Source: a virus. Taken from it: a DNA stretch of 42,417 bases. Positions 15,000 through 40,767 of the stretch are shown here, piece by piece. The first letter of the stretch is position 1. The number at the start of each line of letters is the position of its first letter. Made by a program: the position numbers and the translations under genes. The notes beneath the pieces were generated by a model. The model had not been told where the DNA came from, searched no databases, and was given only the letters and a program-made list of their open reading frames with translations. The stretch spans positions 1-42,417 of the IMG/VR virus record IMGVR_UViG_3300020421_000046; one strand, 5' to 3'.

Positions 15000-16402
15000 T
15001 ACGCTTTAATTAACCTTTGCTGTTCATTAACATTATCTATATATTGACTATATAAAGAAGCAGCGTCATTGTGACCTAAAGGTTGACTAGTACCAGGGTC
15101 TACTAATTCGTATCCTAAAAAAAATGGAAATGAAGCAGATGAAGAAGCTCTAGTTATAATACCTTTTTCTGTTAAGTTAGTGTCTGTCGATAATTGGGCA
15201 GTACTACCAACTATCCAGAAATTACCATCTTCAGGGCTTGATGTTCCGTCTTTCATATAACCATTAGTAATTGTACCATCTGCAGCAGCTGTAGTTGGTG
15301 CAGTTACTAATCCAAAGTTTATTTGTGTTCCAGATGTTGCATAATTTGAAATAACAGTAGCAAAATGTGACCCTCTACGTAATGAAAAGTCAACTACTAA
15401 TCTTCCAGATTTATCAGTATTTTTGTATGTAGTACATCTTACTATTACTAATTCTGGCTTATTTACTAATATCTGAATTCTTCTCCATCCAGAAAAATCA
15501 TTACCTTTTTGACTACCAGATGAAATAAGGCCTTCACTAAATACCCATTCATGTTGTGTAGCATATTGGTTTACATCCCATATGTAACTACTTACAGTTG
15601 CTGTAGTTGCACTTGTTCCAAGAACTAATTTTATAATTCCATTATCTAATACAAGACTATCTCCAACATTCCATGAATTAGCATTTTTACCACACATGAT
15701 ACTGTTAGTTGTTGTTTCAGTACCTTTTGTAAGATGAGCGGTTGAACCATTGTAAGGACCACCACTTATAACTGGAGATGGGTGTTCTAAATGAGTACCC
15801 ATAGATATTTGACATGCTCCTTTGTAATAATCTTCAATATCCACAATATATTGAGCATTATTATTTCTTAAACTAGCATCTTGTTTTAAATATAAAGTAG
15901 TTGTATCAGTAGAACTAGTAGAAGTTATATCTCTAGCAGTTCTGGTGTTAGATGTTGGCTCATCTGCATGAATGTATGCGTAATGATTTCCTGGAGGTAC
16001 ATGAAATTGTTCTACCGAAGTTGCAGAAACATTAAAATCATTTTCTAGTAAAGAGCCAGTTAGTCTAGATTCAAACATTACATCACCTTCTCTACCAACA
16101 TATTCCATTTCTACTGTATAACTAATACTTCCTAATAAATATTTTTGAACATCTACAGATGCACTAGCTACTTTAACATATCCATTTAAACTTGAATCAC
16201 CATCATATCTAAAAGGAACATGTTCATCCATTTGAGCCATAGATTGAAGTTGGTCTCTAATATATTTAACGTGTGACAAATCATGTTCTTTACCACCAAG
16301 AACACCAGCTATGCTTAGTGTTTTACCATCAGAACCTGCACTATGCTGTAGGGAACCTGGTGAAGTCATTGAAAGTCTACCTATATGTACTTGAAAAGCC
16401 AT
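14999..16402 (-). CDS. distal tail (Dit)-like protein
   Basis: This is a 467-aa protein lying directly between the tape measure gene and the hub genes, which is the usual place of the distal tail protein. The N-terminus (AFQVHIGRLSMTSP..., VKYIRDQLQSMAQMDEHVPF) has the beta-strand and long-helix arrangement of Dit N-terminal ring domains. The rest, up to KA at the C-terminus, is a long Thr/Ser-rich beta region, larger than minimal Dit proteins (about 250 aa), so it may carry an extra carbohydrate-binding-like domain. It overlaps the TMP stop and the hub start by one base each. The assignment rests mainly on gene order. Confidence 0.6.
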   Translation of the reverse strand: MAFQVHIGRLSMTSPGSLQHSAGSDGKTLSIAGVLGGKEHDLSHVKYIRDQLQSMAQMDEHVPFRYDGDSSLNGYVKVASASVDVQKYLLGSISYTVEMEYVGREGDVMFESRLTGSLLENDFNVSATSVEQFHVPPGNHYAYIHADEPTSNTRTARDITSTSSTDTTTLYLKQDASLRNNNAQYIVDIEDYYKGACQISMGTHLEHPSPVISGGPYNGSTAHLTKGTETTTNSIMCGKNANSWNVGDSLVLDNGIIKLVLGTSATTATVSSYIWDVNQYATQHEWVFSEGLISSGSQKGNDFSGWRRIQILVNKPELVIVRCTTYKNTDKSGRLVVDFSLRRGSHFATVISNYATSGTQINFGLVTAPTTAAADGTITNGYMKDGTSSPEDGNFWIVGSTAQLSTDTNLTEKGIITRASSSASFPFFLGYELVDPGTSQPLGHNDAASLYSQYIDNVNEQQRLIKA

Positions 16403-19400
16403 TAATTTCTCCTCACGCTACCGCCTGTACTACCTTCCCTATCTAATCTAGATAAAGCTTTTCTAATTTCGACAGCAGCTTTTCTAGCTTGTGATGGGTC
16501 AGCTGGTACACCAGTAACATTTACTGATAAGTTTTCTACTATTGTATTATTACCACGTCCTCCGTGAGTTAGTGGTTTTACTAAGAAACCAGAACCTGGA
16601 ACAAACCTTACTTCTTCAGGACCATACTCTCCAACGAGAGCCCTTCTCATCATATTGTCTCTACCACCCATTGCATATTTTTTAGGTTTGATATGTGTCA
16701 TGTCAGGCACTCTTCCACCCATCTTAAATCCTTTAGCTCTCATTCCCATATGTGCACCAGGTATATAATTAAATGCCCCAATATCATTACTAAATAAATT
16801 AGTAAGCCAATCAGGAAGACCAAATCCCCCTCCACCATTTCCAGAATCAACATTTATATTTATATTGTTACTACCAGCTGGAGTACCAAATCCATCAGGG
16901 TCTAAATTGTCATCATTAAAAAATTCATCTCTAATAGGACCATCTCTTAAAGCAGCTTCTCCTTCTAAAAATAAGTTTAATAATTGTTTGTAAGCACTAT
17001 CTTGCATACCTAATAAACCAGATGCCATAAGTTCTTTACTAAGACCTTTGGTTATAGATTCTGCATTTGCAATAGAAAAAGCTAATTGACCATCATCAGT
17101 TTTAACTGTTCCTACACCCATTGCATTAATTAATGTTTCAAATATACCTGCATAACCATCTCCAGCAAGTAAATCTTCTGGTCTATTTAATCTGTTTTTA
17201 ACTCTGCCTGAATCTATCATGTAATCTGAAAATTTATCAATGTTAGACAAGTTTGTTATTTCTCTACCACCTCTACCACCTAGAGATTCATATAAATCCA
17301 TAAGTATTGGATTATTAGTCATACCGAGCAATCCTTGATTCATAAGAGTACCAAAAGAAGCACCTTCAAATGGAGTACCACCAGTTACAGCTTGAACTGC
17401 ACTCATGTACATATTAGTAAAGTCAGCTAATCCACCCATGTCCATCATTTCATCTAATTCTTTAGAAAATAATAATTCTGATAAATCTTGTACCACATCA
17501 GATATTTGTGTCTTTAGTCCACTAAAATCAAAAGTTCCATCTGCAGCTAAAGTTGTTATTGTGTCTATAAGTGTTCCAACCCTTTCATTTACACCACCAA
17601 AAGCAGTGTCTAGAGCTTTTATTTCTTCTTGATACTCAGGTGCTTTTTCTTTAAACTCTGCATAAGCTGCCTCTACAGCTAAAACACCAGATGCTACTGC
17701 TTCTTCTGCTTCAGCTATACTATTAGCTCCAGCTTGAATGTCTAGTTGAATTAGTTTTTGTTCATCTAATAACCCAATATATGTTTCCCTAGCAGCCACT
17801 AGTTCTGGAGAAGTTTCTAGTATTTCTTTTTCATATTCTTCTTTAGCATCAATTGCTTCAGCGTACTCTAATAAGAACAATTCTTTTTCTGTATCAGTTT
17901 TAAATTCTCCTTTCATGTCTCTAAGAACATCTTGTTCTGCTTCAAGTTGTAATGCAGAAACTATACCTAGATTAAACATTCTTCCAAGTTCAGAAACTTT
18001 TCTTTCTTGAGCTTGTATATCTAAAGCTTCTCTTGCTGTAAATTCTTTGTCTAATCTACGTTTTCTTTCTGCTAAATCAATTTCTCTTTGTAGAACACCT
18101 ATTCTTTCTGCAGCAGTAATATTTCCTTGCATTCCCTCAACTTCAAGTTTGACTAAATTCTCTTTAGCTTTAGTCAATCTATCGGTTAATGTTGATTCTC
18201 TTCTAAGAACAGCAGCATAATCTTGTTTTGCTTTTACTAGATTTCTAGCTTGATTAGTTTGTGCTCTTTCAGCTCTAGTAACATTAGTAATAATCTGGAA
18301 TGCTTCTTGCATTCTTGTAGTTGCTTTTTCATAAGATTTAGATAATTTTTCTGCAAACATATCAAGATTTTGCATCATTTCAGTTCCCAGTGATTTTAAT
18401 AACCCTTGAGCTAAAAATTCATTTGGAGCAAACTGACTATTAGAAGCAATAATATTTGTTAAGTCACCATAGTTTGTGCTACTACCTTTATAATCTCCAA
18501 CTAAATCTAGATTCTTTGTAATATCTTTAGGGTTAGTAGCTCTTTTAAGTACATTGTTAAAGGTGTCTTTTAGTTTTATTTCACCATCTTCAATACCAAC
18601 AATAACACCATCAATTAAAGGTTGACCAATTGCTTTCCTCATTAACTGAGATGGAGAACGTATTATAAATAATTTTACTGCTCCATCAAAAGCTTTCATT
18701 AATATGCTAGCAAATGCTTCAGATACTTCTTCTGACCTATCATTAAGTCCTTGAAGAATTCCTTCAACAGACCTTTCACCAAGAACGTATCCCATTTCTT
18801 CTAGTCGTGCTGCATCTGCACCTTCTGCTTCATCTGGTACAATTTCAGATACATAATCTGCACCACCTAAACTTCTAAGATATATTTCTTGCGCAGCAGC
18901 TAATGCAGGATTATTTAAAAATTCTTCAGCCATGCCTAATCCACCAGAACCAACTCTTGCAAGTTCTGCTGCTAAGACAGGTTTACCTAAGTCACCCAGC
19001 ATTCCTGTAACTTGTTCAAATCTAGTTTGTTGTGCGTCTTTTTTAATAGTGTTCATTAAAACATCTAGTGCTGTCATGTCTTCAAAAGCATCTTCAGGTA
19101 AAGGAGCTGTCAAAGCTACTAATGATTTTCTTGCTTCTTTAAATGCTTGGTCAAGTCGAGCAGCTAATTGTAATGCAGCAGATTCAGTAATTCCAAGTTC
19201 TTCTTGTAATTTTTGAGATGTTAACTCTGACTGCTTAGTAAATCTATCGTAAGCATCTAAATATAATTGTGATATTTTTTGATAGTTATTTCCAACTCTT
19301 TTAACTTCTGCTTCTGTAACTATTCCTGTGTCTCTAAAGTCTTGTAGTCTATTTTTCATAAACTCTTTAACTTGTTTACCTATTTGAGAATTTTCACTTA

Positions 19401-22400
19401 AAGTACTGTTAAAATTATTTCTTATACCTTCAAGTGACATTCCTATAACACCTTCAGCTGAAGACATAGCTTTTGTTAAATCTAAACTAAATTTAGCAAT
19501 GTCTTTAGCATCAAAAGGAAGCTCATCTATAGTATCTACTTTAAATATATCTAATAAACCTTTAGTAACATTTGCTACTGCAAGTTCTTGTTCAGTTCCT
19601 AAATCTCCAAAGAAATTTTCAAAAAATCCGACTTTAGCGTACCATTGAGATAAATCTTTTGTTAATTCTTGAAATACATTTGGGTCATCTATATCAGTTA
19701 GACCTAGTAAGTCAATTAAATCTACAGCAGCTGCTTCTTTACCCATCTGTTCTTGTAATGCAATTAACATTGCAGAAGAAGCTCCAGAAAATATATCTGA
19801 AGGTATATTTACTCCGCCAACATCCTTTTCAGAAAATAATACAGAATTTATTACATCTTCGACAGTAGGTAAATTACCAGCATTCTTTCTTAATACTTCT
19901 GGGTCAATTGCATCTATTAATACGTTACCAATAGCACTTCCAATTTCTTTTTTAATTATTTCTTGACTTCTACCAAATTTTCTTGCTTCTACTTTTATTA
20001 ATGTTTCAAGTATAGACCCTTGATTACCAGTTCCTGCAATAATTATGTCATTTAGGAATGATGTACCTATTTCCTCTGCAGCATTTCTTTTTGCTTTTTC
20101 TAATTGAAGTCCAATATCTTTAATTTTCTTTTCTGCCGCTTCTAATGTTGCTGTATCAGTTATTGAAGACAATGGTCCATCAGGAGCAGTTAGTTGGTCA
20201 AGCTTAACAGTTTCCATTTGTATTTCTCTTAATTTTTCAGATACTGTACCTAAACTATTAGCAAACTCTTCTATACCTCTAGACCTACCGCCTAATTTAG
20301 CTATAAGAGCAAATATTCCTTGAAATACAAGTAGCTGGACTATAACTTTACCAGCTGCAAGTGCCATTCCCTTTAGAGCACTTGTAAATCTGCCCATACC
20401 AGCTCTTGCTTTATCAGTAGCATCTAATAGTTGTAATTCTTCAAATGTTAAATCTTTAGTTGTTTCTGCTCTATGTCTAAGCTCTGCTATATGGTCTTCA
20501 AAAGCACCCATTCTTCCACCAAGTGCAGCTCCTCTAAATTTTCTCATTTGACGTTTTGTAAGACCTGCCGGGTCTATACCTGTCTCAGCTTGATTTCTCT
20601 TTAGTAATGATTTAATCTGATTGTCAATAATTTGTTTATAAGTTAAAGCACCTTTATTTTTCATGTCTTGTCTAAAGATAGCTAATTCATCAAACATTTT
20701 TTGACGTTGGTTAATTCTTGCTTGAGATTTGACTTGCATAGCCTCAAGCTTTTTAATAGCGCTTGCTATTCGTGTTTGTCCAGCACCTAAGAAACCACCT
20801 TCAGGTCTTAAACCAGATACTCTACTTCCAATAGAACTTCCCATAGTTCTTACTCTTCCCATTAAAGATGGTATTGCTGCATCACCTTCACCAACTCGAC
20901 CTTTAACAAAAGTAGCTAATTGACTAGCTTGTAGTCTTTGTAATAATGAAATAGTTCCTTTAACAGCAGTGTTATAGGTCTTAACAGCATTAGAGTCAAA
21001 CATTCTAAATAATGGGTCTTGTTTCATTCCAAAAGCCATGCCTTCTCTTAATTGTCCAGCAACTTTCATAATTGGAGCAGATAATTGTGCTATACCATCT
21101 TTGAATCCGTTAATCCAAAGTCTTGCAAAATCTCTGAGTCCCCTAAAGATAAATCCAAATTCTCTTCTCATGAAGTTTCCTATACCTTTTATTCCATCTT
21201 TAAAACCATCAATCCATAGTCTTGCAAAATCTCTAAGTCCTCTAAATATAAAACCAAATTCTTTCATAAAAGAAGAAGCTAAACCTTTTATACCATCTTT
21301 GAATCCATTAATCCAAAGCATTGCAAATTCACGTAAACCTCTAAATATAAATGAAAATTGATTACCAAATTTTTTAGCTTGAGCTGTAGCTTTTTGAAAT
21401 ACATCTGTTAATCCAAGTCTTATATTTTTACCCATAGCCATAGACTTATTACTTATAGTTGTGATTTGTTTACCTAATACTTTTGCTTTATTTATAGTTT
21501 TTTCAAATAACTTTACACCTTCTAATTTTTCAAGACCCTTTGAAGATGCTCGTAACCCTGCAATAGTAGCTTCACGAGGAGCTGTTCTAGCCTGAGCTCT
21601 TAGTAACTGACCTCTTGCTCTAGCTTGACCCATTCTAGTTGGTCTAAATGTTTGGATTCCACCAAACATAGTTTCTCTACTAAATCTTGAAAAGTAATCT
21701 TCAGAAAATGCAGCATCTTTAAACCTTTTCTCCATACCACGCATAGTGGTCATACTTGACATAAGTTCTGATTTCTTAGTTTCAAATTCAGGTTTTTTCA
21801 TTTGACCAGCTAAAAATCTCTTTCTAAGAGCAGCCATTTTCTTTCTACCCGCAGCGGTCATTTGAACATCTTCTGCTTTATCTGTACTCATTAATAAAGA
21901 TTGAGGAGTTTGTCCACCAAATATTTGTTCAACTAATTGAGGTTGAGCTAATGTATCTAAAGCTCTCATAGAGAAACTACTACCAATACCAAGATTACTT
22001 AATCTTTCTTTAAAGCCTTGTGGACCTAAAGTATTAAAAGGAAGTCCAAGTCTGTTACTCATGAAACTTCTAGGAGCCATTGCTCTTGCTAACATTGGGT
22101 CTATTTGTGTACCATCTTCTCCTGTACTATAAGCTAAAACATTTGAAGCAGTAAACCTACCAGCACCTTTTGCTCCAGTATTATATGCAGTAGCCATTGT
22201 TTTACCAGCAATAGTTGCTCTTTCAGAAAGAGTAGCAAACATCCTCATGTCTGTAGCTGCTGCAGTTACTGAAGCTCTAACAGATTTGAATGCTGCAACA
22301 ATACCCATTACAGGAATTATTGTTCTAGTAAAATTATCTGCTAAATTTAAAGCAGTTCTAGTTGTTATAAATAATATGTTATTTAAATCTTTAACAATTT

Positions 22401-23562
22401 TTTTAGCGCCATCTAATTTATCTAAACCAAAATCTATAAACTCAGCTTTAAGTATATTTTTACCTTTTGCTAATTCTGAGAATAAAGTTTCATATCTTCT
22501 TTCTGCTTCTTCTGTTAACGCATTGTTTTCTCTATAAGCTACGTTTGCAGTTTCTAACGCATTGTATAGTGTGTCATTTGCTTTTGCTAAAGCTAATATA
22601 GCTTTTTGTGTTCTAACCTGTCCTAATCCTAGTTTTTGAAGTACTGTAATATTTGTTAAACCAACACTACTTGTATCATCTAGTCCTTTTATAAAAGCAG
22701 CAACAGCTTGACTGGAATCTAAACTGTATAATTCCTCAAAAGCAGGAACTGACATTCTTGCAACTTGAGCAAATAATTTAAGATTATCTCCACCCTGAGC
22801 CATAGCTTCTGAAAGCTCTGACATCAATCTCACTATTGCAGTAGCACCAGCTTGTGATGGCTGACCTATAGCTCTTAAGGCAGTTGAGAATGCTAATGCA
22901 TCAACAGCAGCATTATTCATTTCGCCCTGTATCTGAGCAGTAGAAGTAGCTATTTGCATAGCAGCATTTACTATTTCAGATTCTTGAGCAGCAAAGTTGT
23001 TACCTAAAGCAACAAGAGAAGAACCTAAGTTATCTAATTCATCTACAGTACTTCCGGTAATTTCTTGAAGTCTGGACATAGCCATAGAAGCATTTTCTGC
23101 AGATAAGTTTGTTGCTACAGTAAGTTTTTGTATTGTATTTGTAAAAGCTACAATGTCGCTAGCAGCAACACCTAACTGACCACCAACGGAAGCTATCTCT
23201 GTAATTGCATCAGTTGTAACAGGTGATTGTTTAGTTAAGTCACGAAGTTTTTTACCTATATTATCAAAAGATTTTTCTATTTGAGCAGTCTCACCTTTTA
23301 TGTCTAAGGTTTTCTTTACTCTGACAAATTGCTCTTCGAATGAAGCAGCTGCCATTGCACCTGCACCAAATGCTGCAACAATACCAGCACCTGTGGTCAT
23401 AAAAATTGTTTGTGAAGCACGAGCTGCTGAAGCAACCCTGCTCATTCTGGTTCTAAGTGAATTAAAAGAAGTAGCTATTTCGTTATTAGCACGTCTAAGT
23501 GAATTCTTATCGTAACCTGCTTCGATTACTGCACGTACTTTAAATGCGTCTACTGCTGCCAT
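16402..23562 (-). CDS. tape measure protein (2386 aa)
   Basis: This is the longest gene in the window. The N-terminus (FEEQFVRVKKTLDIKG, LRDLTKQSPVTTDAITEIAS, GQLGV) matches the TP901-type tape measure family. Hydrophobic segments occur near residues 52-73 and about 1060-1090 (ALAAGKVIVQLLVFQGIFAL). Long coiled-coil regions follow, and three 33-aa tandem repeats lie at 21061-21357. The C-terminus has GEYGPEEVRFVPGSGFLV, typical of tape measure C-terminal regions. I see no cysteine. It sets tail length by running through the tube and is thought to be delivered during DNA entry. By the usual rule of about 0.15 nm per residue, the tail would be roughly 350 nm. It directly follows the frameshifted chaperone gene. 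Confidence 0.95.
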   Translation of the reverse strand: MAAVDAFKVRAVIEAGYDKNSLRRANNEIATSFNSLRTRMSRVASAARASQTIFMTTGAGIVAAFGAGAMAAASFEEQFVRVKKTLDIKGETAQIEKSFDNIGKKLRDLTKQSPVTTDAITEIASVGGQLGVAASDIVAFTNTIQKLTVATNLSAENASMAMSRLQEITGSTVDELDNLGSSLVALGNNFAAQESEIVNAAMQIATSTAQIQGEMNNAAVDALAFSTALRAIGQPSQAGATAIVRLMSELSEAMAQGGDNLKLFAQVARMSVPAFEELYSLDSSQAVAAFIKGLDDTSSVGLTNITVLQKLGLGQVRTQKAILALAKANDTLYNALETANVAYRENNALTEEAERRYETLFSELAKGKNILKAEFIDFGLDKLDGAKKIVKDLNNILFITTRTALNLADNFTRTIIPVMGIVAAFKSVRASVTAAATDMRMFATLSERATIAGKTMATAYNTGAKGAGRFTASNVLAYSTGEDGTQIDPMLARAMAPRSFMSNRLGLPFNTLGPQGFKERLSNLGIGSSFSMRALDTLAQPQLVEQIFGGQTPQSLLMSTDKAEDVQMTAAGRKKMAALRKRFLAGQMKKPEFETKKSELMSSMTTMRGMEKRFKDAAFSEDYFSRFSRETMFGGIQTFRPTRMGQARARGQLLRAQARTAPREATIAGLRASSKGLEKLEGVKLFEKTINKAKVLGKQITTISNKSMAMGKNIRLGLTDVFQKATAQAKKFGNQFSFIFRGLREFAMLWINGFKDGIKGLASSFMKEFGFIFRGLRDFARLWIDGFKDGIKGIGNFMRREFGFIFRGLRDFARLWINGFKDGIAQLSAPIMKVAGQLREGMAFGMKQDPLFRMFDSNAVKTYNTAVKGTISLLQRLQASQLATFVKGRVGEGDAAIPSLMGRVRTMGSSIGSRVSGLRPEGGFLGAGQTRIASAIKKLEAMQVKSQARINQRQKMFDELAIFRQDMKNKGALTYKQIIDNQIKSLLKRNQAETGIDPAGLTKRQMRKFRGAALGGRMGAFEDHIAELRHRAETTKDLTFEELQLLDATDKARAGMGRFTSALKGMALAAGKVIVQLLVFQGIFALIAKLGGRSRGIEEFANSLGTVSEKLREIQMETVKLDQLTAPDGPLSSITDTATLEAAEKKIKDIGLQLEKAKRNAAEEIGTSFLNDIIIAGTGNQGSILETLIKVEARKFGRSQEIIKKEIGSAIGNVLIDAIDPEVLRKNAGNLPTVEDVINSVLFSEKDVGGVNIPSDIFSGASSAMLIALQEQMGKEAAAVDLIDLLGLTDIDDPNVFQELTKDLSQWYAKVGFFENFFGDLGTEQELAVANVTKGLLDIFKVDTIDELPFDAKDIAKFSLDLTKAMSSAEGVIGMSLEGIRNNFNSTLSENSQIGKQVKEFMKNRLQDFRDTGIVTEAEVKRVGNNYQKISQLYLDAYDRFTKQSELTSQKLQEELGITESAALQLAARLDQAFKEARKSLVALTAPLPEDAFEDMTALDVLMNTIKKDAQQTRFEQVTGMLGDLGKPVLAAELARVGSGGLGMAEEFLNNPALAAAQEIYLRSLGGADYVSEIVPDEAEGADAARLEEMGYVLGERSVEGILQGLNDRSEEVSEAFASILMKAFDGAVKLFIIRSPSQLMRKAIGQPLIDGVIVGIEDGEIKLKDTFNNVLKRATNPKDITKNLDLVGDYKGSSTNYGDLTNIIASNSQFAPNEFLAQGLLKSLGTEMMQNLDMFAEKLSKSYEKATTRMQEAFQIITNVTRAERAQTNQARNLVKAKQDYAAVLRRESTLTDRLTKAKENLVKLEVEGMQGNITAAERIGVLQREIDLAERKRRLDKEFTAREALDIQAQERKVSELGRMFNLGIVSALQLEAEQDVLRDMKGEFKTDTEKELFLLEYAEAIDAKEEYEKEILETSPELVAARETYIGLLDEQKLIQLDIQAGANSIAEAEEAVASGVLAVEAAYAEFKEKAPEYQEEIKALDTAFGGVNERVGTLIDTITTLAADGTFDFSGLKTQISDVVQDLSELLFSKELDEMMDMGGLADFTNMYMSAVQAVTGGTPFEGASFGTLMNQGLLGMTNNPILMDLYESLGGRGGREITNLSNIDKFSDYMIDSGRVKNRLNRPEDLLAGDGYAGIFETLINAMGVGTVKTDDGQLAFSIANAESITKGLSKELMASGLLGMQDSAYKQLLNLFLEGEAALRDGPIRDEFFNDDNLDPDGFGTPAGSNNININVDSGNGGGGFGLPDWLTNLFSNDIGAFNYIPGAHMGMRAKGFKMGGRVPDMTHIKPKKYAMGGRDNMMRRALVGEYGPEEVRFVPGSGFLVKPLTHGGRGNNTIVENLSVNVTGVPADPSQARKAAVEIRKALSRLDREGSTGGSVRRN
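21061..21357 (-). repeat. three 99-nt (33-aa) tandem repeats in the tape measure gene
   Basis: Copies are at 21259-21357, 21160-21258 and 21061-21159. Each encodes F[SG]FIFRGLR[ED]FA.LWI[ND]GFKDGI followed by about ten more variable residues. The aromatic residues (F1, F3, F5, F11, W15, F19) are conserved in all copies. The unit of 33 is three times the 11-residue spacing reported for aromatic residues in other tape measure proteins. The DNA copies differ mostly at synonymous positions. Confidence 0.9.
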
Positions 23563-25313: not shown

Positions 25314-25784
25314 TTAAACTGCACGATATGTCATACCTATAGAAAAGTCGTATCTACCTAAACCACTAGCTACTTCTTCAACTCTTGTTGGCATCTGTAT
25401 TATGTCCATACCGTATATTTTTGCTCTAGTTGTAGAATCATCTGTTTGTATATATTCATTTTCCATATTAAAACATTCTTTTAAAATTACGTTTGCTAAG
25501 TTCATTGCACCACCATAATCAGGATTAGCTTTAGTACCATCACTACCCCATTGCCCTGCATAAGCAATTATAGGAAATATAGCTGATTGTATATGGGCTT
25601 GTGATGATGGCCTTACTAAAATACCACCTGCTCTTACAAATACTAAAAATGGTAACTGTGCATCTCTAGGTAATCTAGTAGATATTCTTGTACCAAGTAA
25701 GTCAGTTACAGGTGTTTTAGAAAGCAAAAATTTTCTGAATATAATTTCAGCGTCTGGTGGTACGGGTTGTCCTGTGGTTGGCAT
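25314..25784 (-). CDS. tail terminator/completion protein
   Basis: This is a 156-aa protein with the layout of tail terminator (gpU-like) proteins. A helix at the start (DAEIIFRKFLLSKTPVTDLL) is followed by GTRISTRLPRDAQLPFLVFV, a common pattern in this group. Beta strands and a helix (YGGAMNLANVILKECF) come next, and a final strand YDFSIGMTYRAV. It lies between the giant 1729-aa gene and the tail tube genes. It is expected to form a ring that ends tail polymerisation and docks to the head connector. The assignment is from pattern and gene order. Confidence 0.7.
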   Translation of the reverse strand: MPTTGQPVPPDAEIIFRKFLLSKTPVTDLLGTRISTRLPRDAQLPFLVFVRAGGILVRPSSQAHIQSAIFPIIAYAGQWGSDGTKANPDYGGAMNLANVILKECFNMENEYIQTDDSTTRAKIYGMDIIQMPTRVEEVASGLGRYDFSIGMTYRAV

Positions 25785-25804: not shown

Positions 25805-28800
25805 TTACCAACTAGGAGTTATTTTAAACATAGGATTACCATCTGAATCTTTAAATATTACTCCTCCTCCATCACTTAAGCCAAGTGCAGCTGTAGGGGT
25901 AGCATCCATAATTTCTTTTTGTAGTTTCTTATAATCAGTCAAACTCATAAATGTTACGTCTTTAATAGTATTAGATTTAACCATTTTTTTATTTAAGTTA
26001 AAAGAAGGAAATAGTGAAAAAGCACCTTCAATTAATTTAAATGATTCTGGTATATTCTCTTGTGTCCTAATACCATCTAAGTTTTTAGGTGTTACACCAT
26101 AAATCCACTTGACACCATCGCCTGCTATACCTGATTTTTGCATAGGGGTGCTCATAGAGTAGTGATATACGCCTTTTAGAAATAAAGCTCTGTCATAGTC
26201 ATTTCTAAAATATCCAGTCCTAGTTCCATTATGTAATATTATTGCTAGTTGGTTTACCGCATTCAATGGCTTGCCTTTTACATTCCTTCTACCTTGCCAA
26301 AATAGTTGACCTAAATAAAATGGTTGCATTGATTCTGAATTACTAATTACACGCATTATTCTTTTGTTACCCTGTTCTAATAACTTTGCTCTAGTAGCAT
26401 TTTTAACACCAAGTTCTTCAATGTAACTTTTTCCATATTGAGGAGCAGTAGTATTAACTGTTTTGATAGTTAAATCATCGACATATGCAGCAGCAGCTCC
26501 TTGAACACTACTAGTTAATTTGTCTCTTAACTCTCCTCCAGACGATGCATTAATAAAATCATCAATTACATCTGCTCCATGTCTTCCAACATATAAGTCC
26601 ATTAAAGTATCATCTGCCAAAAGTCTATCTCTTAATTGTTGTGCATTATGAACTGCTCCTATTGAACCTTGTTTAGTACTTACTATTTTTTCTGCGCCTC
26701 TCATAGGGTCTGTAGCAAAATCTCTAAAAGCTTGTACACCTGGGTCGTAGTAATCTTGTAAATCTGATTCAAGTTGAGTAAATGGTCTAGATGTTCCATC
26801 TATACTGTCATAAACAAATTTATTTTCTGTAATTACTTTTCTTCGACCTGTTTCAAAGTCTTCTTCAATTATGTGTGCTTTGTAAGCAGCATCTTCAACA
26901 GAGTAAACAATATTTACAGAATGAACATCTTCCCAATTTATTTTTTCAGCATTTGCATTGTAAAACTGTTTTATAACATCTTTATCTACTCTTTTTTTAT
27001 CTGCGTATCTTTTTGCAATAAATTGAGTTGCAGTTGCAGCATTGATTTTTGCCCTTTCTACACTGTAAGCCTGTGATTGAAGTAACTGTCTAAATTGACC
27101 TTCGCTACTATCTAAACCATTTATGTTTTTAAAAAATATACTATTGTGTCTATTTTGAAACTTTAATGTTTCTTTTCGTGCAACTTCTGAAATAGCTTTT
27201 TCTATAATACTTTTTGTTTGCGTATCAACACTGTTCATTAGAGGGGTCAATCTTTGTGTCATAATTCTTTGCAATTCATAATTTAATCCATGTATAAAAT
27301 CTTTACCTAAGAATATTCTTTTGTATTCATTAATAGGATGTCGAGGGTCATTTAATGCTATATAACCACCTCTAGGACCTCTAAAAGGACCACCATGTGC
27401 TTTAGCTAAATTAAATGCTTTTACAAACCCTTCCCAACTATCTTCTAATATTGCCTTAATTTTTGGGTCATCAGCTGGATTTAGATTCATGCTTAAATCA
27501 AATCCAAATTTTTCTAAAAATATCCTATCACCTTCATTTCTAGTACCTAGTGCTCTAATTGCTTGAGGTTCTATACCTGTAAATTTAGATGCTTGTCTAT
27601 AATCAATCTTTCCAGTAAAAGGATTTTTAAAAATATTTACCATATTTTTCATATCACCTTCATTAAGATTTAAAACAGGCATTTCTCCACTAGCCATACT
27701 TCCATTAGCCATGTTTTGATAAAATGTTCCATAAAACTTTGTAACTCCAGGTGATTTACCACTACCGTGTTGATATAGTGTATCGGGAGTTGTTTGTTGA
27801 CCAGATAATTCACCTAGTTGAACTCTTTCTCTTTTACCATAATAACCAACGGAACTTTGATTTACCTCTGCAAAGTTAGCTATACTTCTACCTGCACCAT
27901 CAATGTCTGTATCTTTCATTATTATATTTCCAGTTTCTCTATCTATCATTGGTCCATCAATACCTAAATCTCTTTTTTGATTATTGTCCATCATTCGAAA
28001 CACGTCTTCAGCTCTTACAGTTCCTACAGCACCAGATTGTCTAAATAAAGCTAAACTTCTACCCATGGCAATACGTGCTTCATTTGCATGGTCTGAACCT
28101 CTTATGGTTCCTTTTTTATTTTGAATTAAACCTTTAAAATCTTTTTCCATTTGAAGTATTCTTCTAACTCCATCTTTACGAGTTTTCTTAAGTTGTTGTT
28201 CTTCTCTTTTTAAATTACGTCTAACTTTTACACCAGCTTTGTCAGAAGAACCTATATCATAAGGGCTTCTTATTTGATAAACACCCTCAACACTACTAAC
28301 CATTTTGAATGTACCAGTTTTACCTGCAGCAGTTGCTGTAAAAGAACCACCACCTGTATCAAAAATACCAAAAAAAGCTGCTGCTCTAGTTCCTGCTTTA
28401 CCCATAAAGTTAGATGCTAAATAAAACATACCATCAGTTCTTTGGTCTAGAGTCATGTTTCTATCATGAGCAGGACCACCAAACTCAATAGAAAATATGT
28501 CTCTAATACCATCTGCTTTTTTAGACTTAGGTGATATACCACCAGCAGATACTTGATATCTAAATAAATAATCTGTACCATCATTTTCATTTTTACCTTT
28601 TCTTTCCATTCTGTGCATATGAATAGATTTTTGAATTTGTATTCTTGTAGGAACATAGTTATGTGATGTCCTCATTTTTTGAGACCTACCACCTTTCTTT
28701 TTTGCAGTACTGTCAAATGCAGGGTTAGAAAATGTAGATAATCCTCTTTTCTCTATAGTTTTTTTACCAGATTTTCCGTTTATAGTGTAATCAAAAGTAC

Positions 28801-30994
28801 CGAATACATACTCTAATAAATCATCGTCTTGCATACCTACTAAAAGTTTTGCAATTTCTTTTTCAGCATCTCTAAATAATTTATTACCGCCTTGTTTTTT
28901 AGAACCTCTTGATTTTATTGCAGCATTTAATAATGCATGTGTTTGAGTAGTTCTTGCAACTTTAGAGTAATTATTATGTAATGATTTTATTTTTTTATCC
29001 CACCAAGATACATCTTTTCCATAAAGTGTGTCACCTTCATTCGCAAATGCACGACTTGTACCTCCAATTTGGTTTTTAAATTTTTGGTTTGTAGCAACTT
29101 TAGGATTACCTTTAGAATCAAAACTTACACTTATTCCAGGGACTTTACCAGTAACAATGTCTATATAACCTATAGAATGACCTAAACCCATAGTTGTAGG
29201 AGAAGCAGCTTTACCTGCATGATAAATATTATTGACCATACCCTCAGTAACTACACCAGATTTAGTAGAGTGCATTCTTAAACCTTTAACTCCTTTATGT
29301 TTATTTGCATTCATTGTTACTTCTCTTAAATATTCAGATTCATAAAAAGGTCCAGAAGCAGGCCTAAATCTAGCTTCAGTAACATTAGGTGTTCCAACTA
29401 TATATTTAGCAATTTGGTCAGCTTTGTTAAAAGAGTTTATAGTCACTGCTTCACTTGTTCTTATTGCAAATGCTCCTTTAGAAATTTCACTTCTTCCTCT
29501 ATCAAAGTTAATCATACTTCCCAATATTCCACCAGTTTCTTGATATCCGTTATTTACTAACCATTTAGAAAATCTTTTTATTGCTTCACGTTCTGTAGCT
29601 CTACCTACAATTTCTTTACCTATGACATCTGCATTTATTGTTAAAATTGCTTGTGATAAATATCTAGCTGCATTAGCAGGTCCTTTTACTCCTTTAAGAA
29701 CTTGCTCAGATGCCATATGACCAAATGCCTGTAGAAATCTTTGTAATTCCTTAAGGCCATCATCATTTAAAAATAATTGTGTGGGTGCAGCTCCATTTCT
29801 TCCTGCATCTTGTTTTAAACTTGCTAAAAAATTGTTTCTTAATAAAGCTTGTTGTTTTCTCATTTCAGATGTTGTAACACCACCAGTAATTGTATTTATA
29901 TTTATATTGTCTTCTTTAGTCGCTTTCCTTACGCCAGTTGATGGGTCTGTTTCTGTTACTTTAGGATTTCTTGGCGCAACTAATGTACCTTGACTTCCTA
30001 GCTCTTTATAATTACGTGTCTGAGTAAAAGCAATTAATTGATTAACTTTATTATATTCTGCTTCACGCATCATTTCAGTTCGAGCTTTTTGTGGTAAGGT
30101 CATAATTCTTGCGTCATCTTGGTATTTATGATTAGCAATTGCATTGTCTAAAACATTTGCAAGTCTTTTCTGAGTACCTCCCATTCCTTTATCTAATATG
30201 TCTGTATCGGCAATACCCATTTTTGACAATACTTTGTCTATTGATATTGGTAATTCTGAAGGTTGTTCAAATGTAATACCTTCAAATATTTTTCTTCCTT
30301 TTTTACCTTGACGTATATTAGAAGCAACTTTCTTTCTATTTTTATCTCTGCTCATTACTTGCATAATTGGGTTATCAGTAAAAGGATTAGGAGCATGAGT
30401 ATATGCATCAGCAAATGTTCTATTACGCCATGCAATAAATACGTTGCCTTTTCCTGGTATCTGTGCTTGATTTAAAAGAGTATTATCCATACGGCTAGGA
30501 TTTATTTCTTGAATTAAACTCATTACTATACCACCAGAACCAACAGACCTAGCTTGTTTTAGTAATGCAGATGTTTCTCTACCTATAACAATGTTTGTAG
30601 CTCTGTCTATTGGTGTATTAGTTCTAAGAGCAGAAGTAACTTGAGGTCTTACTTTACCAATAACTTTTGCTGCACCTAATAATTTTTGACGACTAAGTAT
30701 TTGACCACCTAAAACATTAGAAGGATTTCTAAGGTTCTTTTTCAAAGCATTTAAGTTATTAGAATATTGACCAATTAAATAAGGTACAGAACCCAAAGCA
30801 GCAAAATCAACTCCAAATGCTCCTAGTGTAGATAAGTTATAACCTACTGCATAAAGTAATTCTTTTCTAGGAAGATTACGTAATGATTTAAATAAAGGTA
30901 TTTTACCTTTGCCATAATTAGGGCTTTTATCGGTAAGTGAGAAACCACCGGATTTAAAGAAATCTTTAACATATTGACCAGGTCTATAAGCCAT
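25805..30994 (-). CDS. giant 1729-aa protein of unknown function, probably virion-associated
   Basis: I do not recognise this protein. It sits between the head-tail stopper and the tail terminator, where siphophages normally encode a small (about 100-200 aa) HK97-gp10-like protein. It is rich in Lys and Arg (for example RRNLKREEQQLKKTRKDGVR). A mostly hydrophobic stretch lies at residues 46-77 (LLYAVGYNLSTLGAFGVDFA...), and long helical segments alternate with Gly-rich basic linkers. I found no cysteine on reading the translation. Large, basic, Cys-free proteins in this part of a genome are often packed in the head and delivered with DNA, but that is inference. TLYQHGSGKSPG faintly recalls the H-G-[ST] motif of ADP-ribosyltransferases, which is too weak to call. 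The start (ATG 30994) overlaps the upstream stop. Confidence 0.8.
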   Translation of the reverse strand: MAYRPGQYVKDFFKSGGFSLTDKSPNYGKGKIPLFKSLRNLPRKELLYAVGYNLSTLGAFGVDFAALGSVPYLIGQYSNNLNALKKNLRNPSNVLGGQILSRQKLLGAAKVIGKVRPQVTSALRTNTPIDRATNIVIGRETSALLKQARSVGSGGIVMSLIQEINPSRMDNTLLNQAQIPGKGNVFIAWRNRTFADAYTHAPNPFTDNPIMQVMSRDKNRKKVASNIRQGKKGRKIFEGITFEQPSELPISIDKVLSKMGIADTDILDKGMGGTQKRLANVLDNAIANHKYQDDARIMTLPQKARTEMMREAEYNKVNQLIAFTQTRNYKELGSQGTLVAPRNPKVTETDPSTGVRKATKEDNININTITGGVTTSEMRKQQALLRNNFLASLKQDAGRNGAAPTQLFLNDDGLKELQRFLQAFGHMASEQVLKGVKGPANAARYLSQAILTINADVIGKEIVGRATEREAIKRFSKWLVNNGYQETGGILGSMINFDRGRSEISKGAFAIRTSEAVTINSFNKADQIAKYIVGTPNVTEARFRPASGPFYESEYLREVTMNANKHKGVKGLRMHSTKSGVVTEGMVNNIYHAGKAASPTTMGLGHSIGYIDIVTGKVPGISVSFDSKGNPKVATNQKFKNQIGGTSRAFANEGDTLYGKDVSWWDKKIKSLHNNYSKVARTTQTHALLNAAIKSRGSKKQGGNKLFRDAEKEIAKLLVGMQDDDLLEYVFGTFDYTINGKSGKKTIEKRGLSTFSNPAFDSTAKKKGGRSQKMRTSHNYVPTRIQIQKSIHMHRMERKGKNENDGTDYLFRYQVSAGGISPKSKKADGIRDIFSIEFGGPAHDRNMTLDQRTDGMFYLASNFMGKAGTRAAAFFGIFDTGGGSFTATAAGKTGTFKMVSSVEGVYQIRSPYDIGSSDKAGVKVRRNLKREEQQLKKTRKDGVRRILQMEKDFKGLIQNKKGTIRGSDHANEARIAMGRSLALFRQSGAVGTVRAEDVFRMMDNNQKRDLGIDGPMIDRETGNIIMKDTDIDGAGRSIANFAEVNQSSVGYYGKRERVQLGELSGQQTTPDTLYQHGSGKSPGVTKFYGTFYQNMANGSMASGEMPVLNLNEGDMKNMVNIFKNPFTGKIDYRQASKFTGIEPQAIRALGTRNEGDRIFLEKFGFDLSMNLNPADDPKIKAILEDSWEGFVKAFNLAKAHGGPFRGPRGGYIALNDPRHPINEYKRIFLGKDFIHGLNYELQRIMTQRLTPLMNSVDTQTKSIIEKAISEVARKETLKFQNRHNSIFFKNINGLDSSEGQFRQLLQSQAYSVERAKINAATATQFIAKRYADKKRVDKDVIKQFYNANAEKINWEDVHSVNIVYSVEDAAYKAHIIEEDFETGRRKVITENKFVYDSIDGTSRPFTQLESDLQDYYDPGVQAFRDFATDPMRGAEKIVSTKQGSIGAVHNAQQLRDRLLADDTLMDLYVGRHGADVIDDFINASSGGELRDKLTSSVQGAAAAYVDDLTIKTVNTTAPQYGKSYIEELGVKNATRAKLLEQGNKRIMRVISNSESMQPFYLGQLFWQGRRNVKGKPLNAVNQLAIILHNGTRTGYFRNDYDRALFLKGVYHYSMSTPMQKSGIAGDGVKWIYGVTPKNLDGIRTQENIPESFKLIEGAFSLFPSFNLNKKMVKSNTIKDVTFMSLTDYKKLQKEIMDATPTAALGLSDGGGVIFKDSDGNPMFKITPSW

Positions 30995-31344
30995 TAGTCG
31001 AATCTATGACAAGTTACTATTACCCCCAGTACTCTATTGTCTCTTGTTAAAGATTTTCTAACACCATCAATTTCATAATATTTTGTATTATCAACAGTAT
31101 CTTGTAATCTCATATCTGCTTTTATGTTTACATCACCAGGACAACTAATAATAAAATTTGTAAGTATAGTATTTTGACCACTTCTGTTTTCAACACTACC
31201 TAAATCCTGTATATGACATTTGACATTTGATAAAGCAGTTTGCCATGAATTAGATTCTAACCCTCTTTCATCTAAAGCAGAATCATCCAATGTTTGAACA
31301 TTTATTGTGTCTGTATATAAACGTGTTGTTAATTTTCCGACCAT
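30994..31344 (-). CDS. head-tail stopper/adaptor protein
   Basis: This is a 116-aa protein with the size and beta pattern of the head-tail joining (SPP1 gp16-like) family: KLTTRLYTDTINVQTLDDSA at the start, then SWQTALSNVKCHIQDLGSVE, DMRLQDTVDNTKYYEIDGVR, and a final strand VLGVIVTCHRFD. It lies after the gp6-like connector, with the zinc-ribbon protein interposed, as expected for the component that seals the portal after packaging. The stop overlaps the start of the giant gene. Confidence 0.7.
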   Translation of the reverse strand: MVGKLTTRLYTDTINVQTLDDSALDERGLESNSWQTALSNVKCHIQDLGSVENRSGQNTILTNFIISCPGDVNIKADMRLQDTVDNTKYYEIDGVRKSLTRDNRVLGVIVTCHRFD

Positions 31345-31368: not shown

Positions 31369-32013
31369 CTAATTTATGGTATCAGAGACCTTACTGTCAA
31401 TACTTCTTTTTATTCTTCTTGATTTAGATTTACAAATTTTGCAAAAAGGAACAAGTCCATCTTTATACTTTCTATTACGAGTAAAAGAACTTCTTGATTT
31501 TTCTTTTTTACACAATAAACATAATTTTTTATCATTTAAAACATTTGAAGTTTTTTTAGTTAAACAATTAACACAATACGGAACTAACCCATCGGCATAT
31601 TTTTGACTTTTACTAAATTCAATAGTGTCTTTATTTTGATTACATTTTTTACATATTTTACTAGTAGGATTTAATTTTTTACTTTTTGCTATATTTTGTG
31701 CTTGTGTAATTAAAGATTCAACTTCGGGGTTTTTTCTCATCCACGTCATAAAAGCATCTCTACCAATAGGTAAGTCTTCATAAAGTTCTAAAGAAGTTAG
31801 AGTATGTTTTCCAGATGCAATATCTTCTGATATCTTTTTTGCTAAGCTCATGTCTAATTTATATTTAGACTTTACACCAGATTCTAACTTTATTTGCCTA
31901 ACTCTTTCAGCAGTACATCCCCATTCATCAGCCCAATCTTGTAATTTTTTATTAGGAAATTGCAAAAACATTTTTCTTGCTACTTCTGGTGTTGGTGCTT
32001 TTCTTATAGGCAT
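31369..32013 (-). CDS. HTH and double zinc-ribbon DNA-binding protein inside the head-tail operon
   Basis: This is a 214-aa basic protein. Residues 20-48 (LQDWADEWGCTAERVRQIKL) look like a sigma-region-4-type helix-turn-helix. Residues 82-110 (IGRDAFMTWMRKNPEVESL...) have the W-x4-P-E pattern seen in some small terminase subunits. Two tandem zinc ribbons follow with identical spacing, C-x2-C-x22-C-x2-C: C121/C124/C147/C150 and C165/C168/C191/C194. Each contains the shared core KY.DGLVP[YF]C. Such ribbons often precede HNH nucleases, but no HNH motif follows here. It sits between the connector and stopper genes, which are normally adjacent, so it is either an inserted cargo gene or a packaging or regulatory factor. 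The function is unknown. Confidence 0.7.
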   Translation of the reverse strand: MPIRKAPTPEVARKMFLQFPNKKLQDWADEWGCTAERVRQIKLESGVKSKYKLDMSLAKKISEDIASGKHTLTSLELYEDLPIGRDAFMTWMRKNPEVESLITQAQNIAKSKKLNPTSKICKKCNQNKDTIEFSKSQKYADGLVPYCVNCLTKKTSNVLNDKKLCLLCKKEKSRSSFTRNRKYKDGLVPFCKICKSKSRRIKRSIDSKVSDTIN

Positions 32014-35862: not shown

Positions 35863-38697
35863 TTATTTAATTGGTTTTATGACTTTTAATTTTGAGATAG
35901 GCATTGTCACTTTTCTATCTGTTTTTTTGTGACTTCCGTCTTCCATTATTGCCCACACTTGCATTGTTGCTTCTTTCTTTTCACCATTTACAGAAACTAC
36001 AATTCCATGTACAGTTGATGGTGGTTGAGGGTCTTTATTTATAGACCAACTTACTGACTGTCCTACACGGACACTAGAAGCTTTCCCTTCTATATCTCCT
36101 GATTTTTTAGAACTTAAAGGATGATTGCTAGGTAATAAATCTTGGTCATAAGGTTTTCTCTTAAATCTACCAGTTCTTAAAGCATGTATAAACCCGTTAA
36201 CCCTGCCTAATCCCCACTGGTCAGCTGATGTAACGTTACCTCGAACTGAACCTGGTGAAGTTCTATAAGCACCAACACCTCTGTTAAATACAGATGTTAA
36301 AGTTCTTAAATTAGCTCTGTACTTAGGATTTTTTGCATTATGTTCTTTTACTTTATTTTGTAAAGATTTTCTAATTCTTGCAGATACTGCTTTTGTTTCA
36401 GCAAGTTGTTCAGCAAATATTTCATCTGCCATTTCTTCAGCAGCTTTTCTTCTTGCTCTAACAACTTTCTTTTGGTCGTTAATAACTTTTTTCATTCCAG
36501 ATACACCGATATTTGAAACGCCACCCCATTTAATATTTGCTACAGTTCCAGCAAGTCTTGTATTACCTTGATGTCTACCCATAAACCTTTCTCTTCTTCT
36601 AACCCAATTCAAAACTGATTCACTTCTGTCGCCTGATTGATATTTAGTCCATCTTGAAAATGCATCATTACCAGTAAATGAAGTTGGAGGGTTACCTCCA
36701 TTACCACCACGTCTCCAAATTTCTGGCCAATTTTCTTTTAAGTCTTTTGCGTAACCATAAGGAAATTGTTTATATTTAGAATTAGAAATTCTTACTTGCT
36801 TATCATCACCTGGACTTGGAAAGTTTGTTCTATCTTTTTTTGGTTTTTCAGATTTTTTAGGCTTAATAGCTTCTTCATATTCTTCATGTGATTTACAAGG
36901 CATAAAAACTTTTTTACCATTTACCTCATGAGTATGAACACCAATAGCACATGATAATTCTTTAGACCTATTCATTGCTTCACCCGGATTGTCAAAAACA
37001 TCTTTAGGGTTTGCAGCTTTACTATTTTCTGGTTCTATTTCAAATTGTGATTCCATAAGTACTTCTGCTTCTTCTAAACTTACACCTAGTTCTTCAATAT
37101 TATCATAATTTTTTTTAGGTTTGCGTTTTAAAAAGTTTTCAGCTTCTTTTCTAGTATCAAAACATTTAATAACTTTATTTGTGTCATGACTTATAACACA
37201 GAAAGCACCATTAGGCATTTTAGCAATATACTTTTCTTCACTTCTTGGTTCATCATCCATTACAATTCTTGGTTGTCTTGTTGATTCTGGAAGTCCTTGT
37301 TCAGTTCCTACTATATCTTTTTGTTCTGTTTGTAAATTTGTATCAGCAGCTTGTAACTGTTCTTGTCTCGATTGCTCTCTATTAGCTTCTGGCATTTGAT
37401 TCAATATTGCGTTACCATCTCCATCTATTTGAATCATATTTAAAGGTCTTAAGTAAACGTCATGTTTATCATCAACATTTAAGCCAACAACTTGTCTAGC
37501 TTCACCAATTGTTATCCAACCACCAGATACACCCATGTTTACTCTTTTGTAAAGATTATCTACATCTGTCTGCAAAGCTCTTACTGATTGAATGTCATAA
37601 TCGCACATTAAGTTTTTGTCTTTAAAGTCAGGTATTAACAATTGATGTGTTAGTTCATTAGCTACTGTTCTCCACATTGGAACAAGTTTTTGTTCTGTAA
37701 AAAATTCTCTTAGTTCTTTTGTATTGTTAAAAGTGGCTGCATCCAATCCAGCTCCGAGTCCAGCGAGAATAGCTGGTACACCTAAAACTGCAGATACTCT
37801 CTCTTCAGGAATTCTTCTTAATTCAGCTAATCTCATTTGGTCTGGTGTAAAAGATACAACTTCAACGTTCATTGCACCAGATAAAACCATAGGTGCTCCT
37901 CTATTAGCACCACCAAATTTTTCTTTATACATTGCAGATATTGATTCTGCTTCTTCTTTTGTAGGACCACCATAGCCATCAGTTCTTGGTGTTAACACAA
38001 CACCTGGAACAGCCATGTTATTCAATAGAGCAGTTGTGAATTGTCCAGCTGATTCGTCTCCTAAGATTTCTCTTAGTACTGATTTAAGAGGAGCATGTCC
38101 TCTTCTGTGGTCATTAGGGTCTATTCCTTGTCGGATGTGCACCATATCTTCAACATCAATTTTTATATACTCACCTTTTCCATGTGTGTAGTATTCATAA
38201 TGCGTAATAAGTTTTTGTTCGGTACCTCTTACTTGAACTAAATGAGGCATCAAAGGTACAAGTTCAACAACTTGACCTCTTGCATTTTTGTTTTTAAATA
38301 GGAATGCATCTCCTGCGGTATTTAATGCCAAAACTATATAATGAGAAAGTAAATTGTGAGACATAAAAGGATTAGGTCTTCTTAATAGTTCTGCTAATGG
38401 ATGAGTATAATTAACTTCTCTATCACCAAATATTTGGTCTCTTTTAACAATTTGTAGTTGTGGCTCAGCAAATGAAGTCGCAAGAACATTTAAGCAAGCT
38501 GTAACAGCAGAGTTACCAGAACCATCGCCTATTTCTTTAAGTTTGTCTGATTCGTAAAAACCTGATGATGTATTGTATCCGTATATGGATGCGTCGTTAC
38601 CAAATAATTGATTAAAATTTGATTGTGCTTTAGCTTCCCTACGCCTTGAAGGAACTATGTTATCTAAAGCTTTTTGTAATCTGCTTTTCTCTTCCAA
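35863..38697 (-). CDS. portal protein with about 500-aa multi-domain C-terminal extension
   Basis: This is a 944-aa protein starting at TTG (38697), because no ATG occurs before residue 112. A GGGA lies about 10 bases upstream. Residues 20-430 match the HK97 portal family (NSAVTACLNVLATSFAEPQL, HPLAELLRRPNPFMS, RIPEERVSAVLGVPAILAGL). HK97 portals end near here. Extra regions follow. Residues 490-525 read VISHDTNKVIKCFDTRKEAE. Residues 565-612 have Cys583/His588/His590/Cys601, a possible metal site. Residues 645-745 (NWPEIWRRGG, RRRERFMGRHQGN, NIKWGG) and 795-862 (RGVGAYRTSPGSV, WGLGRVNGF, DQDLLPSNHP) resemble conserved modules of marine phage proteins. Residues 875-944 resemble an HVA1/Tudor-like beta domain (VRVGQSVSWS, VHGIVVSVNG). 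Such domains may stay inside the head. Confidence 0.85.
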   Translation of the reverse strand: MEEKSRLQKALDNIVPSRRREAKAQSNFNQLFGNDASIYGYNTSSGFYESDKLKEIGDGSGNSAVTACLNVLATSFAEPQLQIVKRDQIFGDREVNYTHPLAELLRRPNPFMSHNLLSHYIVLALNTAGDAFLFKNKNARGQVVELVPLMPHLVQVRGTEQKLITHYEYYTHGKGEYIKIDVEDMVHIRQGIDPNDHRRGHAPLKSVLREILGDESAGQFTTALLNNMAVPGVVLTPRTDGYGGPTKEEAESISAMYKEKFGGANRGAPMVLSGAMNVEVVSFTPDQMRLAELRRIPEERVSAVLGVPAILAGLGAGLDAATFNNTKELREFFTEQKLVPMWRTVANELTHQLLIPDFKDKNLMCDYDIQSVRALQTDVDNLYKRVNMGVSGGWITIGEARQVVGLNVDDKHDVYLRPLNMIQIDGDGNAILNQMPEANREQSRQEQLQAADTNLQTEQKDIVGTEQGLPESTRQPRIVMDDEPRSEEKYIAKMPNGAFCVISHDTNKVIKCFDTRKEAENFLKRKPKKNYDNIEELGVSLEEAEVLMESQFEIEPENSKAANPKDVFDNPGEAMNRSKELSCAIGVHTHEVNGKKVFMPCKSHEEYEEAIKPKKSEKPKKDRTNFPSPGDDKQVRISNSKYKQFPYGYAKDLKENWPEIWRRGGNGGNPPTSFTGNDAFSRWTKYQSGDRSESVLNWVRRRERFMGRHQGNTRLAGTVANIKWGGVSNIGVSGMKKVINDQKKVVRARRKAAEEMADEIFAEQLAETKAVSARIRKSLQNKVKEHNAKNPKYRANLRTLTSVFNRGVGAYRTSPGSVRGNVTSADQWGLGRVNGFIHALRTGRFKRKPYDQDLLPSNHPLSSKKSGDIEGKASSVRVGQSVSWSINKDPQPPSTVHGIVVSVNGEKKEATMQVWAIMEDGSHKKTDRKVTMPISKLKVIKPIK

Positions 38698-40384: not shown

Positions 40385-40767
40385 TACACAAATCTCCTCA
40401 AGTATGCTCTTACAAATTTAGTGTACTCTCTTTTTGCTCCAGTAATAGTTTTACCGTCAAAAATATCATGATGGTATTTACAAAAAATAGCAACATTACC
40501 TTCATCGTTCGAAATATTTCGATTCATGCCTCCCATTCCGATTCCAGTAATGTGTGCCATCTCCAGCCACTGTGTTGTATCGCATTCTGGCCACTCACAT
40601 CTATAGTTTGCTCGTTTTAATGCTTTTTCTCTTAAAGCTGATTTATTTATCTTTCCAGTGCCTTCACGCTTTTTTTGTCCCATACCAGATATACCATGAG
40701 ACTTACTTCTTCTTTGTTTAAATTCTTTGTAGGTTTCTTTTTCTGGGTCCCACTCTACTCTAGCCAT
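40384..40767 (-). CDS. HNH endonuclease
   Basis: This is a 127-aa protein from the ATG at 40767. An upstream ATG at 40788 in the same frame gives 134 aa but lies further inside the SET gene and has no ribosome-binding site. The HNH core is C57-x4-C62 (CEWPEC), then LEMAHITGIGMGGMNR with the catalytic His72, and NVAIFCKYHHDIFDG with C96, H99 and H100. The N-terminal about 50 residues are basic. Placed shortly upstream of terL, it probably supports packaging-associated DNA nicking or cutting, a link known for HNH proteins of other phages. It overlaps the SET gene by 8 nt. Confidence 0.85.
   Translation of the reverse strand: MARVEWDPEKETYKEFKQRRSKSHGISGMGQKKREGTGKINKSALREKALKRANYRCEWPECDTTQWLEMAHITGIGMGGMNRNISNDEGNVAIFCKYHHDIFDGKTITGAKREYTKFVRAYLRRFV

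Follow-up and report, generated by a model that had tools for sequence, protein, structure and literature searches.

Tail-completion proteins (TCPs) are essential and widespread, and HK97 gp10 (PF04883), lambda gpZ (PF06763), SPP1 gp16.1 and 80alpha gp51 are all encoded in the same slot, directly before the tail terminator. Those of HK97, lambda and 80alpha are free of cysteine, and by eye the gp10 motif order is helix-AP-[TS]xxL-beta-YxxxxE/NxG-PxxF-helix. The TCPs studied to date are 112-255 aa long and play an auxiliary role in assembly of the tail-to-head interface, SPP1 gp16.1 being needed for the routing of DNA into the cell (PMC11099176), and the 80alpha TCP (gp51) lies inside the neck, where it touches both the DNA and the tape measure (PMC11661146). 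The T5 protein p143 (255 aa) is found at the tail tip, and its status as a true TCP is doubted (PMC11784142). The place and role of TCPs are disputed, with a neck interior position in 80alpha, a tail tip position in T5 and DNA routing in SPP1.

Here we analysed positions 1-42,417 of IMG/VR virus record IMGVR_UViG_3300020421_000046 (hereafter the window, meaning this whole stretch of 42,417 nucleotides). Its genes follow the order MCP, adaptor, stopper, X, terminator, major tail protein (MTP), chaperones, tape measure protein (TMP), which is that of HK97 and lambda, the slot protein X being gp10 in HK97 and gpZ in lambda. In the window, X is a minus-strand gene (25805..30994) which encodes, from its ATG, a protein of 1729 aa and takes up 12.2% of the sequence, and we propose that it is probably a giant form of the tail-completion (TCP/Neck1) protein (gTCP). 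As the initial annotation had it, the gene lies directly between the head-closure or stopper protein (30994..31344, minus strand; phrog_615, E 1.8e-5), whose stop codon overlaps the giant gene's start by one base in the sequence TAATG, and the tail terminator (25314..25784, minus strand; phrog_123, E 8.9e-5). Further upstream are an endonuclease-VII-like zinc-finger gene, an adaptor (phrog_442), a small ORF, MCP, protease, portal and terminase, and downstream of the terminator come a small ORF, the MTP, chaperone-like ORFs and the TMP (16402..23562, minus strand; 2386 aa, no cysteine). Several other genes have features of their own. A 214-aa gene between adaptor and stopper (31369-32013, minus strand) has an HTH-like, terminase-small-subunit-like N-terminal part (PF20901, E 0.0037) and two endonuclease-VII-like CxxC...CxxC units, and its homologues occupy the same place in many relatives and were not found in part of the short size class defined below. 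The portal (35863-38697, minus strand) carries a C-terminal addition of ~480 aa with a weak DUF5824 match (E 7e-4), and a 102-aa ORF (40760-41068, minus strand) resembles a SET domain by eye ('..GGFINHSEEPNS..', '..KAGEEITLKYT') and gave no match in NCBIfam.

Three observations show that the giant ORF is not a chance ORF. A relative that is 85% identical (L003) keeps the frame open over its full length, the dN/dS against that relative is 0.33, and 38 other contigs each have one giant ORF in the slot; given the open frame in those 38, an assembly artefact is very unlikely. In the same window-L003 pair the TMP gave a dN/dS of 0.34, the MCP 0.12 and the terminator 0.02, and within the giant gene the ratio peaked near the C-terminus, with values of ~0.4-0.6 for residues 1401-1700 and 1.3 for the last 29. 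The giant protein is under purifying selection along nearly its whole length, relaxed like the TMP and most relaxed at its C-terminus. The initial annotation had correctly reported the position and size of the gene, as well as a Lys/Arg-rich and cysteine-free product (K+R 14.5%, D+E 10.2%, net charge +75, pI 9.8), zero cysteines in 1729 aa having a chance of ~0.006 at the proteome rate of ~0.3%, which is unusual, not unique. It had also noted a hydrophobic stretch near the N-terminus, which is present at residues 57-75 but has a Kyte-Doolittle peak of 1.39 over 19 residues, under the usual membrane-span threshold of 1.6 for a 19-residue window, and a transmembrane segment was rejected on these grounds.

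A search with the MCP returned 80 viral contigs, all of them IMG/VR records, and in every one with a complete slot, stopper and terminator were separated by one ORF of 1099-1774 aa. When the conserved core of the giant protein served as query, L101, L104, L200, L201, L204 and L208 were added, and the shortest giant protein then measured 1047 aa. All 38 complete-slot relatives, a number which excludes the window itself and includes several near-identical contigs, thus have one giant protein (1047-1774 aa), with neither a small protein nor any other TCP candidate in the slot. Size variation among relatives, which had been put forward as a check in the initial annotation, proved decisive.

Three spacing classes become apparent from the anatomy of the protein. 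An alignment of 23 members has seven invariant columns (M1, R131, G138, P202, G818, G839 and G840), and most of the conservation lies in two parts, the first ~205 residues and residues 776-892. The first 165 residues (30500..30994, minus strand), which contain R131 and G138, were predicted to be helical by AF2 in the homologue L052. A proposed TCP helix (residues 166-205; 30380..30499, minus strand) ends in the nearly invariant A201 and the invariant P202, a proposed equivalent of '..IDRAPVRTG' in HK97 gp10. Residues 206-775 (28670..30379, minus strand) form a fast-evolving insertion of ~570 aa, and residues 776-892 (28319..28669, minus strand) a conserved stretch, with the consensus 'NYVPxRxxIxxSIH...V..GG...AD.IRD..xIE.GGPA.D...RTD..Y.PS.FM..A...AA..G', which is proposed to supply the beta-hairpins and C-terminal helix of a TCP and which together with residues ~166-205 makes up the TCP-like core. 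The rest of the protein (residues 893-1729; 25808..28318, minus strand) is a C-terminal extension that carries no conserved motif and is found in all members, at ~575-970 aa. The alignment of relatives revealed no conserved motif in residues 206-775 or 905-1729, and comparison of segment profiles found no internal duplication or repeat in either insertion or extension.

Between the Ala-Pro pair (201-202) and the core there are 24-26 aa in L005, L038, L052 and L081, 289-375 aa in a short class and 550-646 aa in a long class that includes the window. The first four contigs together with L204 constitute a no-insertion clade in which the core is contiguous, being split elsewhere after the invariant Pro, and the core profile of this clade matched that of the other members by hhalign (E 2.6e-6). 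In a tree of five flanking proteins with midpoint rooting the no-insertion clade is sister to all others, and growth of the giant protein by insertion is the simpler reading because of this topology, the root of which is not independently known.

We consider the identification of the giant slot protein as a TCP to be probable, although no single line of evidence proves it. One line comes from Sinorhizobium phage Aussie and ctLpZ231, whose portal and MCP rank among the closest annotated ones (~31-36% identity) and both of which have a TCP. The Aussie portal ranked first among 600 records, at 35% identity to the window portal, and the same slot in Aussie is occupied by a 148-aa protein that matches the PHROG 'tail completion or Neck1' families (phrog_5/phrog_26) with an E value of 5e-9. 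In ctLpZ231 a 161-aa protein annotated as virion morphogenesis adjoins the connector gene and matches phrog_26 (Neck1; 3e-22). These TCPs differ from the giant protein in being of ordinary size, with no insertion or extension. A second line comes from the no-insertion clade, where the core reads '..LRALAPR..(F)GPNNLADSV....APYVWIANYGG...PTFFAERSLEF' and by eye tracks the HK97 gp10 sequence 'IDRAPVRTGKLKKNV...FYWRFVELGT..MPAHPFVRPA', with the motif order given above for gp10. First hhalign comparisons gave no meaningful alignment; the slot profile against a gp10 profile then aligned colinearly in the gp10-like motif register at a non-significant E value of 0.14, an alignment that is weak because 8 of 200 column shuffles equalled its score (3 of 200 with a similar span). 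Scans of viral contigs with HK97 gp10 and 80alpha gp51 recovered near-identical sequences only, too uniform to deepen the gp10 profile.

Structure prediction also points to a tail protein. The AF2 model of the whole L052 protein had a mean pLDDT of 49 and was best at residues ~148-310 (mostly 65-84, with dips to ~50), where a predicted succession of helix, hairpins, short helix and helix resembles the published description of gp51 (PMC11661146), so that the predicted secondary structure of the no-insertion clade appears to follow the 80alpha TCP. In Foldseek the model's best viral match, over 160 columns, was a 'Putative tail component' of 201 aa (probability 1.00, E 1.4e-3), followed by a protein of 173 aa (also probability 1.00), with an 'HK97 gp10 family' protein at rank 44; TM-scores were modest at 0.40-0.50 depending on the target, the output leaving the matched residues unspecified. 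The L052 model had no structure match in the PDB, and the window core folded alone reached a pLDDT of 47 with no useful structural match.

As the initial annotation had concluded that it could name no family, so the giant protein had no sequence match in Pfam, PHROGs, NCBIfam or the PDB. No related sequence was found by tblastn against 50,697 phage records, nor by a scan of GTDB genomes with the conserved core. Because no member or consensus matched the HMMs PF04883, PF05069 and PF06763 or the Neck1 PHROGs (phrog_5/26/222), we infer the TCP fold and function of the giant protein from its position, motifs and predicted structure. Some observations count against this reading. At 1047-1774 aa all 38 relatives lie far outside the 112-255 aa of described TCPs, from which they also differ by a core split by up to ~650 aa, by the C-terminal extension and by the lack of significant HMM similarity. 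More than about one copy of a 1729-aa protein would be hard to fit in the neck lumen, and T5 p143, encoded in the same slot, indicates that a slot protein need be neither neck-located nor a true TCP and that slot and location can diverge (PMC11784142). The initial annotation had the usual ~150-aa protein of the slot displaced by something else; the occupant is indeed giant, but the evidence suggests that it is that same TCP/Neck1 protein with its core split and extended.

We compared composition and length with those of the TMP in 21 phages of the clade. The giant proteins contain 6 cysteines in 28,614 aa and the TMPs none in 42,253 aa, and the MTP, which is not ejected, likewise has none in 4,579 aa, with 1.0-1.3% cysteine in stopper and terminator. 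Of five known TCPs checked, none contains cysteine and four are net basic. The scarcity of cysteine, as in the TMPs, would be in keeping with an exit of the giant protein alongside the tape measure, but it is no proof of ejection, since the non-ejected MTP and ordinary TCPs also lack this residue. Like the giant protein, the TMP of the same phages is long and fast evolving and its length tends to track that of the insertion, but it is a separate gene and is net acidic in 20 of the 21 phages, whereas the giant protein is basic in every member. A charge complementarity between the two was discarded, the raw trend disappearing with phylogenetic contrasts (r 0.26 and -0.07). Raw Spearman correlations with TMP length were 0.72 for the giant protein and 0.74 for the insertion, and the corresponding values from phylogenetic contrasts were r=0.39 (p=0.08) and r=0.45 (p=0.04), based on 20 contrasts with several tests made, so that a scaling of giant protein length with the TMP is a hint and suggestive only. 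For these counts the TMP of the L077 genome was read through an in-frame stop: near position 4150 of the reverse complement of L214, which belongs to that genome, the ~2880-aa TMP gene has a single in-frame stop beyond which the same frame continues, with sequencing error, recoding and a real split as candidate explanations. The window TMP contains, at residues 736-833, three tandem copies of ~33 aa (F-G-F-I-F-R-G-L-R-D-F-A-R-L-W-I-[DN]-G-F-K-D-G-I).

Other explanations can be set against a giant TCP. The giant protein might be a novel ejected protein that is not a TCP, stored in neck, tail or head, its gene having displaced that of the TCP and now filling the TCP role as a side effect. Its large size and lack of a conserved catalytic motif, cysteine near-absent as in the TMP (6 in 28,614 against 0 in 42,253 aa), net basic charge in every member and TMP-like dN/dS (0.33 against 0.34) would all suit such a protein, but conservation is highest in a TCP-like core, the gene lies in the TCP slot, the Foldseek matches indicate a tail component, and the lack of cysteine extends to the non-ejected MTP and ordinary TCPs, so we regard this explanation as unlikely. 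Storage in the head as an inner-capsid protein, the first suggestion of the initial annotation, finds no support in homology or position, the gene following the stopper, which argues against membership of the head module. Alternatively, a TCP-like or other core may serve as anchor for extensions on the outside of the neck, in the form of a collar, a whisker or an appendage that scans for receptors. The fast evolution and the size classes fit a surface appendage, as does T5 p143, whose gene occupies the same slot and which sits outside, at the tail tip (PMC11784142), but domain searches found no Ig-like, adhesin or other appendage domain and the extensions are without internal repeat, and we judge a neck decoration of this kind to be distinctly unlikely. 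The initial annotation had also suggested a protein that carries several effector domains, a faint H-G-[ST] element recalling ADP-ribosyltransferases. There is one H-G-S, at residue 1076, but it is not conserved even in L019 or L025 of the same size class, conserved catalytic motifs of the H/R-[ST]-E type were not found, residues 206-775 and 905-1729 hold no conserved motif, and Pfam, PHROGs and NCBIfam contain no matching domain; an ADP-ribosyltransferase was accordingly rejected and an effector carrier in general seems extremely improbable.

For the giant TCP we propose the following working model. The TCP-like core would consist of the helix to A201-P202, then beta-hairpins, a short helix and the C-terminal helix of residues 776-892, and would join the completed tail at its proximal end, beside the terminator, as do gpZ, gp16.1 and gp51. 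On this core two large, cysteine-free and mostly basic additions would have grown, in the loop after Ala-Pro and at the C-terminus. Since TCPs act in assembly of the tail-to-head interface and route DNA, and the 80alpha TCP lies in the neck, the core would do the same job, keeping both the DNA end and the tape measure in place at the neck, and the additions would lie inside the neck and tail lumen or reach into the portal, exiting with the tape measure at infection and helping DNA routing across an actinobacterial envelope. Ejection is possible by analogy, because TCPs route DNA and that of 80alpha lies within the lumen of the neck in contact with DNA and tape measure, but both lumen location and ejection of the giant protein are speculative. 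In its fullest form the proposal is that the TCP of this clade turned into another long polypeptide poor in cysteine, which would occupy the neck and tail lumen alongside the TMP and be expelled together with it, acting as a conduit or plug that guides DNA at the actinobacterial envelope, its size scaling with that of the tail. We put this forward tentatively and regard it as rather doubtful.

WhiB is an actinobacterial regulator, and WhiB (PF02467) matches were present in 12 of 21 related records examined, the clade being found in many marine metagenomes, often with WhiB. Mizuno et al. linked 'Ca. Actinomarina minuta', a marine actinobacterium of low GC content, with a marine phage fragment that bears WhiB (PMC3861242). 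The hosts of these marine phages are probably actinobacteria, and by inference a host of the 'Ca. Actinomarina minuta' type is plausible for this clade. In the window a WhiB-like protein can be recognised by eye at 42111-42386 (minus strand). None of the five no-insertion records, which may be fragments, has a WhiB match, an absence that may point to a different host there.

A TCP enlarged ~5-10 times, with natural intermediates that have an uninterrupted core, a ~300-aa insertion or a ~600-aa insertion, would provide a large marker for a protein whose described forms are small, one that should show in cryo-EM and be easy to detect by proteomics. This clade could thus settle where the TCP is located and whether it exits with the DNA.
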